Below are positions 48,975-55,875 of a stretch of DNA of 64,000 nucleotides, one piece after another; the first letter of the stretch is position 1; each line of letters opens with the position of its first letter. Origin of the DNA: Gemmatimonadota bacterium (lineage in GTDB: Bacteria; ARS69); NCBI GenBank assembly GCA_030747075.1, contig JASLLL010000002.1, positions 101,821 to 165,820 on the forward strand. The letters are read 5' to 3'. Made by a program: the position numbers and the translations under genes. The notes beneath the pieces were generated by a model that had not been told where the DNA came from, ran no database searches, and worked only from the letters and a program-made list of their open reading frames with translations.

Positions 48975-49472
48975 CTACTTGGGCGACACCATCGACCAGA
49001 CGCCGCCCTTTTCGACCCATCCGTACCGCGCGACGCCTTCCTCCTTGTGGACGGTGACCTGCGTCGTCTCCAGTGCTTCCCCGTTGTCTTTCATGAAGAT
49101 GTCGAGGTCGTAGATCTTCCCGTTTGTGGCGCGAAAGTCCGCGCAGGCGAAGTAGACATCATCACCGAGAGAGGCCAGCCGCTCCCGGTGGACCTTCACG
49201 AGTTCGAGAGCGAGCGCCTCTTTTGCCTGCGTGTCCCAGACGAGGAAGAAGCCGCCGAGGAGCGCTGACTGCGCGGCGACATACGCTTCGATGGAGTCGC
49301 CCAGTTCCTCCAGAGAGACTTCGCGGGGCGACCCGGGGTGCTCGGGGTGCTCGCCGGGGTGTTCCGGGTGCTCGCCGGGATGCTCGGGGTGCTCGGCAAG
49401 GGCGGGAAGTCCCCAGAGGCTGATCGAGAACAGGCAGGCGGAGAGGAGCAGGATACGCGGCGAGATCTTCAT
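48975..49472 (-). CDS. Small secreted protein with His/Pro repeats
   Basis: A 165-residue exported protein. A signal peptide (residues 1-26, ending LPALA) is followed by three exact EHPEHPG repeats (residues 27-47) that could bind metal. A ~115-residue mature domain then contains ALALELVKVHRERL, VYFACADFRATNGKIYDLDIFMK and a C-terminal ARYGWVEKGGVWS. I do not recognise the domain; its layout suggests a small alpha/beta fold. It converges on queG 16 bases away and follows the subtilisin gene, but a terminator separates them. Confidence 0.7.
   Translation of the reverse strand: MKISPRILLLSACLFSISLWGLPALAEHPEHPGEHPEHPGEHPEHPGSPREVSLEELGDSIEAYVAAQSALLGGFFLVWDTQAKEALALELVKVHRERLASLGDDVYFACADFRATNGKIYDLDIFMKDNGEALETTQVTVHKEEGVARYGWVEKGGVWSMVSPK
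49332..49394. repeat. Three 21-base tandem repeats encoding EHPEHPG
   Basis: The repeat units are near-identical in DNA and exact in protein, in the N-terminal region of the small secreted protein. Copy number may vary between strains. Confidence 0.75.
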
Positions 49473-49659: not shown

Positions 49660-50952
49660 CTACTTCTCCGTGAGAGCGTTCAGCGGCGAGATGCGCCCGT
49701 GCAACACTCCCGATCCCGGGAAGACGGGGTCCGTTGTTCCCGCCACCCGGTGCGCCGCCGTGATCGGCGCAAGCCCCAGTCCCTCAACGAGAATCGCCAC
49801 CGACCCGACCGTTGCGGGAGTGGCCATGGAAGTGCCGCTGGCGGACGCCATGCCCTGCCCGGGATAGCAACTGAGAATACGGACGCCGGGCGCGGCCACA
49901 TGGATCTCCGGCCCCCCGCCCGAGAACTCCGCAAGCGCGTCCACCGAGTCCACCGCGGCGGCACCCAGCGTCATCGGCGAGGTGCCGGGATATGCGGCCG
50001 TTCCCCAGCCTGCGTTTCCGGCTGCGGCCACCACGGGAACCCCGCGAGACACACAGTCCGACAGGATCCGGTCGAACATCTCGACCGGCTCCGAAAGCGA
50101 GAGGCTCAGGTTCACGATGTCGGCCCCCAGCTTCCGCGTGATCTCCATGGCGCGAACGAGGTCCCAGAAGCTGCCCATGCCTTCATCGTTCAGCACCTTG
50201 ATGGGGATGATGGTGATCCCAGGCGCCACCTGAAGCGCGATCCCGGAGACATGCGTCCCGTGCCCGTAGGCTTCGTCCACATATCCGTCTCCGTCGTCGT
50301 CGATCCCGTTCTTCGTTTCCAGAGACCCCATCGTGCTTCCACCGGGAAGAAGCTCCAGGTTCGCCTTGAGAAACCGGTGGTCTGCGTCGACGCCTGTATC
50401 GAGAACCGCGACGCGAACGCCTGCGCCGGTCGCGAGCGCGTGAACCCGCGGCAGCTCCAGTCGGGCGAGCGCGTCTTGGTCTCCCGCAGTGCCGTCATCC
50501 CATTCGCCTTCGTAGAACCCGATGACGAGAGAGGCCCCTTCCAGCAGGTAGACCTCGCGGTTCGTTGCCGCCTCCTCCACTCCCGCATAGTCATCGAGTT
50601 GAGAGATGTCGACCCCCGCAGGGTTGTTGTAGAGCACCGCCACCCCGCCGTCGCACGCCTCCGTGTAGACAATCTCCAGCCCGAACATGTCCACAAGAGC
50701 CTCCGGATCCGCGCCGGGCCGCATCTTGACGACAAACTGCGTACTGTCGGGGACGACCATCTGGGGACTGGTGATTCCCATGGAACCGCCCCCAAGGTCG
50801 CCGCCCCCGCCACCATGAGACCCTCCGGTCGAGCTGCTAATGCGAGAGCGCGCCGGGTCATCGGGTGCGGTAGGGAGGCCTTGGTCCACCCCGCAGCCCG
50901 CCGCAAGCGCGGCGATCCACAGTGCGGCCAGAACTCTGGCGGAATGCTTCAT
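49660..50952 (-). CDS. Subtilisin-family (S8) serine protease lipoprotein
   Basis: A 430-residue exported subtilase. The lipoprotein signal LWIAALAAGCG is followed by a Gly/Ser-rich linker and an inhibitor-I9-like propeptide (FVVKMRPGADPEALVDMFG). The catalytic triad is in VAVLDTGVD, GHGTHVSG and SGTSMATPA, with oxyanion asparagine in AAAGNAGWG. A GIDDDGDGYVDEAYG loop may bind calcium. The ribosome site GAGGAGG is strong. A GTGTATCA element lies ~190 bases upstream in the same orientation. It is the first gene after the TPR-CHAT operon and could act in the same response. Confidence 0.92.
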   Translation of the reverse strand: MKHSARVLAALWIAALAAGCGVDQGLPTAPDDPARSRISSSTGGSHGGGGGDLGGGSMGITSPQMVVPDSTQFVVKMRPGADPEALVDMFGLEIVYTEACDGGVAVLYNNPAGVDISQLDDYAGVEEAATNREVYLLEGASLVIGFYEGEWDDGTAGDQDALARLELPRVHALATGAGVRVAVLDTGVDADHRFLKANLELLPGGSTMGSLETKNGIDDDGDGYVDEAYGHGTHVSGIALQVAPGITIIPIKVLNDEGMGSFWDLVRAMEITRKLGADIVNLSLSLSEPVEMFDRILSDCVSRGVPVVAAAGNAGWGTAAYPGTSPMTLGAAAVDSVDALAEFSGGGPEIHVAAPGVRILSCYPGQGMASASGTSMATPATVGSVAILVEGLGLAPITAAHRVAGTTDPVFPGSGVLHGRISPLNALTEK

Positions 50953-51368: not shown

Positions 51369-54149
51369 CTATCCGGAAACGGCGGCAAAGGGGCCCCAGT
51401 GGAACGGATGCGGCATCGTCGCGCGGACCGCATCCCGGGCCAGAGCGGCGGCTTCCGCGGCGGGGGCACCCCCGACCCACGCGGGGTAGAACGCCGAGGC
51501 GAAAGCTCGCGACGATGCGTCATCCACTTTCCAGAGCGTAAGCACAAGCTCCCGCGCACCCGCCCCGAGCCCGGCGGTGATCCACCCGTCCATGTCGGAT
51601 CCGGGCATGTTCTCGGCAAGGCCGGATTCGCAGCTGGTGAAGTGCAGGAGCGAATCCTGAAGACGGCGTCGGTGAAGCTGCTCGAAGCCGAGCCAGCCGT
51701 CCGCCAGTCGCAGCCCGGAAAAGAGCCATCCCTGTCGGTGGAACACACCGTGCGCGGCGACATGCAGCACACCGAGACGACCGGACCCGTCACCCAGAGA
51801 GTCGCGGCGGCCGGAGACCGTCACATCGAATCCGCTGCGCCGGAGAATCGTGCCAACCTCGCGGACCTCTTTGCGGGTACCCGTTTCTCCACCGCCGAGA
51901 AGGAGCGCGCTCGGGCGAACCTTTCGGCGTCGGCTTCCGAGAAGCGCCGGGTGCGGAAGGCGGGACACACAGGGCGGCCCGTCTCCGTTCGAGACGGGCA
52001 GCGCCTGCACGGGAACGCTGTGCAGATCCCCGTGCGGGACCACGACGACATCTCGGGAAGCAAGCGACAGCGGCGTCCACAGAGCAGACCGCAGTTGCTC
52101 GACGGAACGCGTGCAGTCGTCCAGCGTCCGGTCGAGGAACTCGGCGCGTCGACGAACCGGCGCGTGAGCCGCCGTCTCCAGCGTGATGCGCAGGGGAATC
52201 CAGGTGCCGCGAAGCGCATCCTCGGCATCCGGGAGCGCGACATGCTCCACCCGCCCCCCCGACCGCACGACGAACGCGCGCCAACCGGAGGTGCCGCGAT
52301 CGTAGATCACGAGTTCGCGCCCGTGGAGGAGTCCCTTCCACTGACGGAAGGCCCGTTTCTCCCATGCGCGCCGAACGAGCGCCGGCGGACGAAGCGGCCC
52401 CTCGCCGAGTTCCACTTCCAGACGGGCCATCTCTCCGCGAAGCGCACGGAAGCGGGTGTCCTCGCCGCCGGGCGCCTCGCCTTCGGAGAGGCATTCGTCA
52501 CGAAGCCGGGCAATGGCCGTTCGCGTTTCCGGGCGAAGCTTGCGGGCGTCGCCGTGAAGCAGGTCTTCGATCAGGTTGGGGGAGCGCGCTTTCGCCACGA
52601 GATCTACGGCACGCGCAGCGGCGGAAGGCCCCCCGTGTTCGAGAACGACCTCCACCGCTTCCGCGTAGATGCGATCGCGCGCGCCGCCGGTGAGGATTCG
52701 AAGGCGGCGTGTGCCGAAACGCATGAGCAGCGTCTCGAGATCCTGCACGGAACGGCCCGCCCAGCGAACGGCTTCGCGGGAGCGCCCCAGAGCACCGAGC
52801 GCGCGGGCCGCGACTCCCGCCATGAGCGGCCGCTCCAGTCGGCCCGGGTGGTGGCGTGCGGCGCGGTGAGCTTTCTTCGCGAGAGTTGCGGCGATCCCGG
52901 GTCGGCCCGCGAGAAGATGCGCCTCCGCGGCGACCCCCCGGCAGAGCGCTCCGTCGCCAAGAGGATCTCTTCGGTCGAGGTAGCGCTGGATGCCGCGCAG
53001 GTGATGAAGCGCGCGCTCCGGGTGCCCGCCTTCCAGAAGAACCCGCGCGATCTCCAACTCCGCCCGGCGGCGGGACCACACATTCCCCACTTTCTTCCAG
53101 TAGAGGCGCGCGCGCTCCAGGTGAACCATCGCTTCCTGATGCGTGGCGGTCGTCGCAAGAAGCCGTCCGTGCAGGAACGCGGCCTGCGCGGCTTCCGACT
53201 CCATGCCCAGACCGTCGAACACGGAAAGCGCGGCGGCAGATTCCGGCTGCGCGGCCTCGGGCGCACCGACGGATGCGAAGAGCATCGCCAGTTCCCGATG
53301 GAGCCACGCGACGGCGCGCTCGTCTCCGAGCTTCGCAAAGCGTTGGCGCAGGCGGCCCACCGCTTTCACGCCGATGTCCCAGTTTCCTTCGGCGATGTCC
53401 AGTGCTGCGAGTCCCGTCTCCGCATAGGACTCCAGAAGCTGGACACCCGCCCCGCGGAACTGCTCGCGTGCGCGAAGGAACTCGCGGCGGGCGATGGAGA
53501 CACGCGCGGTCATCATGGCGATGATACCGAGATTGTACGCGCAGACGCCTGCGTCCCATGCGTTCCCGGAGCGGCGGAATATGGCCAGTGCGGCGCGGTA
53601 GCGTTCGGTGGCAAGGTCGTACTTGCCGGTGAAGAGCCACGCGTTCCCGACATTCGACTCCAGCCTGCCGCGAAGCTCCGGCGGCCCTCCGCGAAGATCC
53701 CCCACAGCCCCCCGGGCGACGGCGTGCGCGCGCTTCGGTTCGCCGCGAAGGGCCAGCGCGTGGACCCAGCCGATGGCTGCCTTTCCCGCCTCCAGCCGCT
53801 CCCCCGCCTTTCGGAAGGCAGCGTGCGCGGCGGCATACGCATCGCACGCTTCCGCCACACGACCGACCGCGGACAGCGCGTGCCCTTCCAGGCGCGCGAG
53901 CCGTGCGGCGTCTGCCGGATCCGGGTTGCGCCCTGCGACCCTTCGCATGTGGAGTACCGCATCGAGCGTCTGCGCGGGGTCCAGGCGCAGGTGCCGCAGC
54001 AGCGTGCGGTAGATCCGCTCCCAGGGCGAAAGCTCCGCTTCATCCGCCGGCACGCGCCCACCCTTCGCCCAGCGATCGGGGAGATCCCGATCGGGCGGGA
54101 GGGAAAGCAGGCGCGTGACGGCGCCACGAGTGGAGGGCTTGCGGGTCAC
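51369..54149 (-). CDS. TPR-CHAT caspase-like protease
   Basis: A 926-residue cytoplasmic protein. Residues ~80-480 are helical TPR-like repeats (ESNVGNAWLFTGKYDLATERY, VCAYNLGIIAMM and similar), a sensing or scaffold part. The C-terminal ~320 residues are a CHAT domain, clan CD of caspases and separase: catalytic histidine in HVAAHG near residue 800 and cysteine in FTSCESG near residue 840, both intact, plus LVLTLWKVDD. The GTG start at 54149 overlaps the anti-sigma stop (GTGA). Being third in an operon with an ECF sigma and anti-sigma, it probably acts in that switch, perhaps by proteolysis. Confidence 0.9.
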   Translation of the reverse strand: MTRKPSTRGAVTRLLSLPPDRDLPDRWAKGGRVPADEAELSPWERIYRTLLRHLRLDPAQTLDAVLHMRRVAGRNPDPADAARLARLEGHALSAVGRVAEACDAYAAAHAAFRKAGERLEAGKAAIGWVHALALRGEPKRAHAVARGAVGDLRGGPPELRGRLESNVGNAWLFTGKYDLATERYRAALAIFRRSGNAWDAGVCAYNLGIIAMMTARVSIARREFLRAREQFRGAGVQLLESYAETGLAALDIAEGNWDIGVKAVGRLRQRFAKLGDERAVAWLHRELAMLFASVGAPEAAQPESAAALSVFDGLGMESEAAQAAFLHGRLLATTATHQEAMVHLERARLYWKKVGNVWSRRRAELEIARVLLEGGHPERALHHLRGIQRYLDRRDPLGDGALCRGVAAEAHLLAGRPGIAATLAKKAHRAARHHPGRLERPLMAGVAARALGALGRSREAVRWAGRSVQDLETLLMRFGTRRLRILTGGARDRIYAEAVEVVLEHGGPSAAARAVDLVAKARSPNLIEDLLHGDARKLRPETRTAIARLRDECLSEGEAPGGEDTRFRALRGEMARLEVELGEGPLRPPALVRRAWEKRAFRQWKGLLHGRELVIYDRGTSGWRAFVVRSGGRVEHVALPDAEDALRGTWIPLRITLETAAHAPVRRRAEFLDRTLDDCTRSVEQLRSALWTPLSLASRDVVVVPHGDLHSVPVQALPVSNGDGPPCVSRLPHPALLGSRRRKVRPSALLLGGGETGTRKEVREVGTILRRSGFDVTVSGRRDSLGDGSGRLGVLHVAAHGVFHRQGWLFSGLRLADGWLGFEQLHRRRLQDSLLHFTSCESGLAENMPGSDMDGWITAGLGAGARELVLTLWKVDDASSRAFASAFYPAWVGGAPAAEAAALARDAVRATMPHPFHWGPFAAVSG

Positions 54150-54745
54150 TGCTTCGGATCCTCCAGCGTGAGAGTTTCCCCGTCCGGCAGATGGACCTCC
54201 AGCGTCCAGCCCGACCCCACGGCCTCGTCCAGCACGAAGTCGCCGCCGCTCGGCAGGTCCGCCCGGGCGATCACATGTTCCTGATGAATGAGCGCAATAC
54301 GGACCGCGTCGCCCGGCTTCTCCTTGCGCAGCCAGACCTTTCCCTGGATGCGCCAGCGACCGTCGCCCTTCGGGGGCGTCGCCATGATCCCGACTTCCGC
54401 CTCCGGCACCACCCGCGAGACCATACGAGTCTGCCCGGCGGCCCCCATCCCTCCACCACGAACATCGGCGGGAGCCCACGCAAGCGGGCGTGCGGCGGCG
54501 GTCAGGTCGGGCAGGAGCCTCCCGTCCGGCAGGCGTTCGACGAGTTTTCGCACGCGTTCCGGCGGCGCCACCCACTTCATCGCCTGCTTCGCCCGGAGAA
54601 GAACGCGAAGCGTCCCGACCTCGCGGCGGCAGCGAACGCAGGTGTCGTGGTGCTCCTCCAGTTCGGTTCGGCGGCGGGCCGTCCCCTTGCCCTCCAGCCA
54701 GGCGCGCCAGTCGTCCGGGGCGGGATGGTTGCGTCTTGCGGTCAC
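54146..54745 (-). CDS. Zinc-finger anti-sigma-like protein, soluble
   Basis: The N-terminal region carries a ZAS-type zinc site, HHDTCVRC at residues 32-39 (H-X3-C-X2-C), the fold by which many anti-sigma factors hold ECF sigmas. No membrane helix follows, unlike most such proteins. The last ~75 residues (WRIQGKVWLRKEKPGDAVRIAL to SGWTLEVHLPDGETLTLED) look like a beta-sandwich. At 199 residues it is coupled to the sigma gene before it and the CHAT gene after it by GTGA overlaps. It may be the regulatory target of the CHAT protease. Confidence 0.82.
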   Translation of the reverse strand: MTARRNHPAPDDWRAWLEGKGTARRRTELEEHHDTCVRCRREVGTLRVLLRAKQAMKWVAPPERVRKLVERLPDGRLLPDLTAAARPLAWAPADVRGGGMGAAGQTRMVSRVVPEAEVGIMATPPKGDGRWRIQGKVWLRKEKPGDAVRIALIHQEHVIARADLPSGGDFVLDEAVGSGWTLEVHLPDGETLTLEDPKQ

Positions 54746-55305
54746 GATGTCCCCTCCAGGATCTTTCTCATGCGAGCCAGACAGCGGCTTCGAATGGGGC
54801 CGATAGAACCGATGGCAAGGCCGGTCCTCCGCGAGATTTCGTCATACGGGAGCTTGCGCGCGTGCAGGAAGAGAAGCCGCAGGAGCTTCTCGCACTTCCC
54901 GCCCAGTTGTGTGAGGGCGTCCTCCAGCCGAAGGCGGCTCTCCGCGTCCTCGACGACCGTGTCGGGGAGTGCCGCGGGGTCCACCATGTCGGCGGAGATG
55001 TCCGGGAGCATCCGGCGCCTCCGAATGGCGACCTTGTAGGAGAGCCGTCTCGTGGCCACGATGAACCATCGGGGAAGCGCCTCGGCATTGCGAATGCGCG
55101 GAATCGAACGGTGGAGCTCCAGCCATACATCCTGAAACACATCGCCCGCGTCCTCTTCTCCGAGGCCCACTTCCAGGGCCGTCGAGTAGACGAGATTCTG
55201 ATAACGCAGGACCAGTCTCTTCCAGGCGGCCTCGTCGCCTTCGGCGCAAAGTCGGAGAAGCGTCTCATTGCTCTCCTTGTTCTGCGGGGGCGAGCTGTCG
55301 GCCAT
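54742..55305 (-). CDS. ECF-family RNA polymerase sigma factor
   Basis: A 187-residue two-domain sigma factor. Region 2 is visible as WKRLVLRYQNLVYSTAL and AGDVFQDVWLELHRSI, with RWFIVATRRLSYKV for -10 melting. Region 4 is LRLLFLHARKLPYDEISRRTGL, a helix-turn-helix for the -35 element. The ATG at 55305 lies just after GAGGAGAGG; a GTG at 55332 would add nine residues. It is first in the sigma / anti-sigma / TPR-CHAT operon. A GTGTATCA copy lies ~180 bases upstream, so it may control its own transcription. Confidence 0.92.
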   Translation of the reverse strand: MADSSPPQNKESNETLLRLCAEGDEAAWKRLVLRYQNLVYSTALEVGLGEEDAGDVFQDVWLELHRSIPRIRNAEALPRWFIVATRRLSYKVAIRRRRMLPDISADMVDPAALPDTVVEDAESRLRLEDALTQLGGKCEKLLRLLFLHARKLPYDEISRRTGLAIGSIGPIRSRCLARMRKILEGTS

Positions 55306-55486
55306 CCTCTCCTCGGGGATCCACGGGAGCACAAGAGTCTCAGGGAATCCTAGCGGATCGGATGATTCCTGGCAAAGACGCCGGGCGCCTGCCCCGAGAG
55401 GCGAGTGCCCGGCCGCAACAGGTCATCCCCGCCGCGCCGGCCCACTTGGGTCTCTCCCGGCAAGAAGGGCGCGGGAGCCGCGCTCC

Positions 55487-55502: not shown

Positions 55503-55875
55503 GTGTTCTGAAGAGGTTGTTTTTCTCCGCCCCCCCCTTCAGGTTCTGTCCATTGGGGTAACTTCCGTTTGGGCTAGAGGTTAGCAGACATGGCCGTGGC
55601 TGGCTCCGCGTGGAATCGGACGAAAGAGAGCCGGGGTGGGGAGTATTCGGGCAGATTGGGGACCGATGTCGCCGCCGATCCTCCGGCCGGTCCTCTCCCC
55701 GGGAGGGAGCGGTCAGGAGGCGTCTGACGCACGGAAGGCCCGCGCCCGGGGTTGCGAGAGCTCAATTCATTGGGTCGTCGTGAGATGCGCCGCCAAAGAG
55801 CCGAACCGTTGCCTCGAGGATCATGTCGGCCCCGGCAACCTGGACCCTACTTCTTCAACAACCTCTTCAGAACAC
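55503..55875. repeat. 19-base perfect inverted repeat around 335 bases in a gene-free gap
   Basis: GTGTTCTGAAGAGGTTGTT at 55503-55521 is exactly reverse-complemented at 55857-55875. The 890-base gap 55306-56223 has no ORF I can support; 72- to 139-codon frames exist on both strands but none resembles a protein or has a good ribosome site. Other small hairpins lie at 55944-55957 (GTGCC/GGCAC). The repeat could bound a small mobile element, form an RNA stem, or bind a regulator. No flanking target duplication is visible. Confidence 0.6.

Follow-up and report, generated by a model that had tools for sequence, protein, structure and literature searches.

A conserved four-gene module of ECF sigma factor, anti-sigma-like protein, TPR-CHAT protease and exported subtilase as a candidate proteolytic transcription switch

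In the type III-E CRISPR system Craspase (Csx29, Csx30, CASP-sigma), CASP-sigma is inhibited by Csx30, which is cleaved by the TPR-CHAT protease Csx29 (PMC10028731). The ECF54 section of PMC8999054 (citing Casas-Pastor 2021 and Huang 2015) describes sigma factors adjoined by genes for CHAT, subtilase and carboxypeptidase-type proteins, and proposes proteolytic control with no anti-sigma factor. In Myxococcus xanthus the ECF sigma factor DdvS is controlled by DdvA (PDB 8rot, 8rw5), a single transmembrane polypeptide in which an anti-sigma domain of zinc type is united with a CHAT domain. DdvS is switched on through inactivation of DdvA. Separase, a eukaryotic protease with cohesin as its substrate, combines a long helical-repeat arm with a caspase-like domain and cuts after arginine; acidic residues are modelled to bind the P1 arginine.

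The locus reported here lies in a 64-kb window (the whole stretch of DNA analysed, 64,000 nucleotides) of a host genome of 61 contigs and 2.67 Mb, probably metagenome-derived and estimated to be 100% complete; no experimental study of its four-gene set was found in the literature. As in Craspase, a TPR-CHAT protease stands beside an ECF sigma factor and a two-part putative inhibitor, and Csx29 is the nearest solved structure to the protease both by sequence and by fold. The TPR arm is longer than in Csx29, and the module is without Cas7-11 or a CRISPR array: no RAMP (PF03787) match was obtained in the whole host genome and no array of regularly spaced repeats in the window, where an earlier note on this DNA had likewise reported neither. 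Membership of type III-E CRISPR was rejected on these grounds. Compared by sequence, no Csx30 chain was matched by the profile of the middle protein (E up to 10). The best model is a module that would work like Craspase outside type III-E CRISPR. The gene setting itself, as that ECF54 section describes it, is already known: the sigma gene is adjoined by CHAT, subtilase and carboxypeptidase-type domain genes, a likeness of gene context; the difference is that the carboxypeptidase-regulatory-like protein of the window, like most of its relatives, has an anti-sigma domain in front. From DdvA it differs in consisting of two soluble proteins, to which an exported subtilase is added.

Gene layout, protease and subtilase

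Features of the locus (window positions; all on the minus strand):
54742–55332 (−): ECF sigma factor gene, 196 aa from GTG (NCBIfam sigma70-ECF, 8.5e-19; Pfam Sigma70_r2, 9.6e-8)
54146–54745 (−): gene of the soluble anti-sigma-like (middle) protein, 199 aa (zf-HC2, 0.0087, weak; anti-sigma profile matches)
54521–54745 (−): anti-sigma domain, residues 1–75 (H32-x3-C36-x2-C39; helices 10–17, 23–35, 37–55 and 63–70)
54458–54460 (−): R96 codon, candidate P1 of a CHAT cleavage site (invariant; inside stretch 79–101 of pLDDT < 50)
54161–54427 (−): beta-sandwich domain, residues 107–195 (AF2 strands; CarboxypepD_reg relatives; Ig-like folds by structure)
51369–54149 (−): TPR-CHAT protease gene, 926 aa (Pfam CHAT, 1.4e-24, residues 681–924; TPR_12)
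52635–54026 (−): TPR superhelix, about residues 42–505, presumed sensor arm (AF2 helical hairpins; LGN/Pins and Rap TPR matches)
51378–52109 (−): CHAT (caspase-like) domain, residues 681–924 (Pfam; Csx29 and separase folds)
51750–51752 (−): codon of catalytic His800 (invariant)
51630–51632 (−): codon of catalytic Cys840 (invariant)
49660–50952 (−): S8 subtilase lipoprotein gene, 430 aa (Pfam Peptidase_S8, 1.7e-31)

The earlier note had described three genes coupled through GTGA, the first encoding an ECF sigma factor and the last a 926-residue TPR-CHAT protein with intact His near 800 and Cys near 840. The ORF coordinates bear out the coupling by two 4-base overlaps (sigma stop/middle start and middle stop/CHAT start), the NCBIfam match the identity of the sigma factor, and the catalytic residues are exactly H800 and C840. 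The trio is present as described and is conserved, but the unit has four genes: the S8 subtilase gene, which follows the CHAT gene at a distance of 416 bases, had been overlooked. Shine-Dalgarno-like sequences precede the middle, CHAT and subtilase genes and an ATG of the sigma gene at 55305; because GAGGAGAGG lies immediately 5' of this ATG, it is the more likely sigma start, giving 187 aa instead of the 196 aa read from GTG. A sigma ortholog of 65% identity was found in a genome of the same family. The gap that precedes the sigma gene holds a perfect 19-base inverted repeat, GTGTTCTGAAGAGGTTGTT (window 55503–55521 and 55857–55875, arms 335 bases apart), which might mark the termini of a small mobile element or form a long RNA hairpin.

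The AF2 model of the TPR-CHAT protein (pLDDT 86.7, pTM 0.83) has a long TPR superhelix leading into a caspase-like domain, in which the loop directly following Cys840 is disordered. The nearest solved proteins were Csx29/TPR-CHAT (CHAT profile, E 2e-15 to 2e-11; structure, Z 30), then separase, which shares the fold and has only marginal sequence similarity to the window protein (E 0.09). H800 and C840 were invariant in 47/47 aligned relatives covering the site, and in further aligned sequences wherever these were covered; judged by sequence and model, the protein is a caspase-like protease with an intact catalytic dyad, and its substrate is probably the middle protein. E761 (helix alpha-1) and D877 (start of the helix after beta-5), invariant among module CHAT domains, occupy the positions of the acidic residues by which separase is modelled to hold the P1 arginine; at the position of Asp877, found in all CHAT proteins of the quartet, the Scalindua TPR-CHAT chain has Ser. 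The pair was rejected as a mark of arginine specificity, both residues occurring in other CHAT domains as well, and is only compatible with it.

The subtilase has a lipobox (LAAGC) and intact catalytic motifs and is 42% identical over 257 aa to that of a related module; an export or lipoprotein signal was found on the subtilase in nearly all loci. Because an exported protein cannot reach cytoplasmic partners, the subtilase is read as probably belonging to the output of the switch. When the upstream regions of the sigma and subtilase genes were searched for a shared ECF promoter motif, no candidate exceeded the level of shuffled sequences. Near the subtilase gene, ORF 48975–49472 encodes a small exported protein in which 21-base tandem repeats (49320–49395) give repeats of HPEHPGE type.

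The middle protein and its linker arginine

In the AF2 model of the window middle protein (pLDDT 79.9) four helices are followed by a linker (residues 79–101, pLDDT < 50) and an eight-stranded sandwich. The N-terminal profile matched solved anti-sigma structures (RslA, 2.5e-6; ChrR, 5e-5; RsiW, 2e-4; DdvA, 2e-3), and the whole-family profile matched both CarboxypepD_reg-like sandwiches and anti-sigma factors; a CarboxypepD_reg match was given by 14 of the 48 family members. Fold searches returned the beta-sandwich (Ig-like) only, the anti-sigma part being recovered by sequence profile and not by structure. On these profile matches the N-terminal part is regarded as a genuine anti-sigma domain, and the protein as the probable inhibitor of the ECF sigma factor. 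What appears to be new is its architecture, in which a disordered linker joins the anti-sigma domain to a beta-sandwich, together with an invariant arginine in that linker.

The earlier note had called the protein a soluble one of ZAS type. That description holds for the window protein, which has H32, C36 and C39 (motif H-x3-C-x2-C) within the four-helix region and is free of transmembrane or hydrophobic helices; solubility extended to every lineage checked. Family-wide the label is not universal: the zinc cysteines are kept in about three quarters of the members and missing in about one quarter, and the anti-sigma helix bundle itself is absent in some (L081, L086, L094, L105, L107, L153 and L154). 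The zinc-less N-termini (Chloroflexota and Rubrobacter members) gave no direct match to solved anti-sigma factors; profile to profile they aligned with the zinc form (hhalign, 97.5%).

Two columns only of the middle-protein alignment were invariant, F170 in the sandwich and R96 in the linker, and they remained the sole ones when the set was thinned to 32 sequences sharing less than 40% identity. R96 was kept in 48/48 aligned members and in 20/21 held-out members (10/11 and 10/10); it stands in a disordered linker between two predicted domains, within otherwise poorly conserved proteins, and in most members it ends a G-V-R motif whose next residue is Ser, Gly, Ala, Thr or Asn. R96 is a candidate cleavage site of the CHAT protease; its invariance may come instead from a structural or binding role.

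Distribution of the module

Genomes of the same family contain related gene sets. One genome per species was scanned, giving 80 loci over which profiles of the sigma factor, middle protein, CHAT protein and subtilase were run. In the tree of CHAT domains (67 rows) those of module-bearing loci, the window's included, were set apart by a branch supported at 100/100; the place of the window CHAT within this clade is unsure because its own branch is long. Co-occurrence was counted at CHAT loci with enough flanking DNA: among 39 in-clade loci the sigma gene was present at 35, the middle gene at 38, the subtilase gene at 37 and all three at 33; at 9 loci outside the clade the corresponding counts were 0, 0, 1 and 0. 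Conserved co-occurrence in related genomes, which the earlier note had proposed as a check on the trio, was thus observed for the sigma factor (35/39) and the middle protein (38/39). A second sample, not selected via CHAT, consisted of 198 Actinomycetota genomes searched with the middle-protein profile only; the protein was detected in 11, and the 10 middle genes with flanks adjoined a sigma gene (10/10), a CHAT gene (9/10) and a subtilase gene (8/10), one CHAT gene among these loci being cut by a contig end. As a yardstick of chance, the 2.67-Mb genome of the window holds 9 subtilases and 8 sigma-70 region 2 matches. The arrangement is conserved far above chance level, and sigma factor, middle protein, CHAT protein and subtilase form one conserved module.

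The module was found in Acidobacteriota, Chloroflexota, Actinomycetota (Rubrobacter), Armatimonadota and unclassified relatives of the window; no quartet was found in the plasmid records examined. Its build varies: in many Acidobacteriota the middle gene is placed after the CHAT gene, not after the sigma gene; Planctomycetota loci are without sigma and often repeat the subtilase; in Krumholzibacteriota (L056) sigma and middle genes lie beside the CHAT-subtilase genes on the opposite strand. At L056 (5515–12266) the CHAT-subtilase pair is flanked by two such opposite-strand sigma/middle-protein pairs. In Planctomycetota, L089 and L092 have three or four tandem subtilase genes after the CHAT gene, again with no sigma gene.

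The proposed switch, its alternatives and CHAT loci of other build

The module is read as a cytoplasmic proteolytic transcription switch in which the anti-sigma protein would be cut and the sigma factor freed, a reading that is given an even chance. The ECF sigma factor would be kept inactive by the N-terminal anti-sigma domain of the middle protein, whose C-terminal sandwich would present it to the TPR-CHAT protease; a signal sensed by the TPR superhelix would activate the CHAT domain, which would cut the linker, probably after R96 (G-V-R | small residue); the anti-sigma fragment would thereby be inactivated and the sigma factor released, to whose regulon the operon and the exported S8 subtilase may belong. 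Support comes from the conservation of the four-gene set in one CHAT clade and its absence from the loci outside, with which the second sample agrees; from the anti-sigma profile matches, the solubility of the middle protein, R96 in its disordered linker and the invariant His and Cys; from the acidic E761 and D877 at the positions modelled in separase to hold the P1 arginine; from the closest folds, one cleaving a sigma inhibitor (Csx29) and the other cutting after arginine (separase); and from DdvA, which unites anti-sigma and CHAT domains. Counted against it are the bundle-less middle proteins, the sigma-less Planctomycetota, the gene order in Acidobacteriota, the promoter result, the generality of E761 and D877 among CHAT domains and the possible structural or binding role of R96.

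Control might be non-catalytic, the TPR-CHAT protein binding the middle protein so that a conformational change releases or traps the sigma factor uncut, with the caspase-like site serving another substrate or rarely used. Conformational change is the usual mode of soluble ZAS anti-sigma factors (PMC8999054), and the single-chain DdvA, whose inactivation turns DdvS on, would be a parallel; in a mere binding platform, however, His and Cys would not be expected to persist in every quartet CHAT protein covering the site, and an invariant R96 in a disordered linker better fits cleavage. This explanation is thought unlikely. Less probable still is degradation of the sigma factor, in which CHAT and/or subtilase would hold its level low with the middle protein as adaptor. 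It follows the published ECF54 proposal of proteolytic control without an anti-sigma (PMC8999054) and would suit the middle proteins that are without anti-sigma helices; yet the anti-sigma domain, where present, matches known anti-sigma factors, and a subtilase exported or lipid-anchored in nearly all loci cannot reach a cytoplasmic sigma factor.

A defence or cell-death device, with CHAT protein and exported subtilase as effectors and the sigma/anti-sigma pair controlling their expression only, ranks lowest and is held improbable. CHAT proteases are known in defence systems, a weak PADLOC match to BovA was obtained, and the tandem subtilases of Planctomycetota would be in keeping with an effector role; PADLOC, however, has no family of its own for the module, the distribution is wide and apparently chromosomal, and middle protein and sigma factor stand together even at L153, with no CHAT gene nearby.

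Beyond the proteolytic switch itself, a wider proposal is put forward tentatively, as possible more than probable: a CRISPR-independent pathway of caspase type in many phyla, in which a TPR-CHAT sensor-protease would cut a soluble anti-sigma factor after R96 and the ECF sigma factor would control an exported subtilase, with Craspase as one recruited form of a far older sigma-release switch. If true, caspase-like proteolysis would be a common control of bacterial transcription beyond CRISPR, and the literature on ECF54-type sigma factors would come to speak of an anti-sigma that is cut instead of one that is missing. What is added here to the known gene setting is the anti-sigma domain on a carboxypeptidase-like protein in many lineages, the joint travel of four genes across several phyla and one invariant linker arginine, which narrows a vague genomic association to one testable residue, a candidate for the exact cut site.

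CHAT genes in other settings were also noted. Two of the host genome's other three CHAT proteins are encoded at L035 (G000:C44, 251–4158) and L036 (G000:C6, 5807–9455), where the CHAT gene adjoins an ECF-like sigma gene without a middle protein; the L035 protein has an apparent N-terminal export signal. L048 (G002:C253, 7867–12932) is of different build, a sigma gene being followed by a zf-HC2 protein fused to TPRs and then by a TPR-CHAT protein; from its domain content this fusion is recognized as a zinc anti-sigma factor with a TPR arm of its own.
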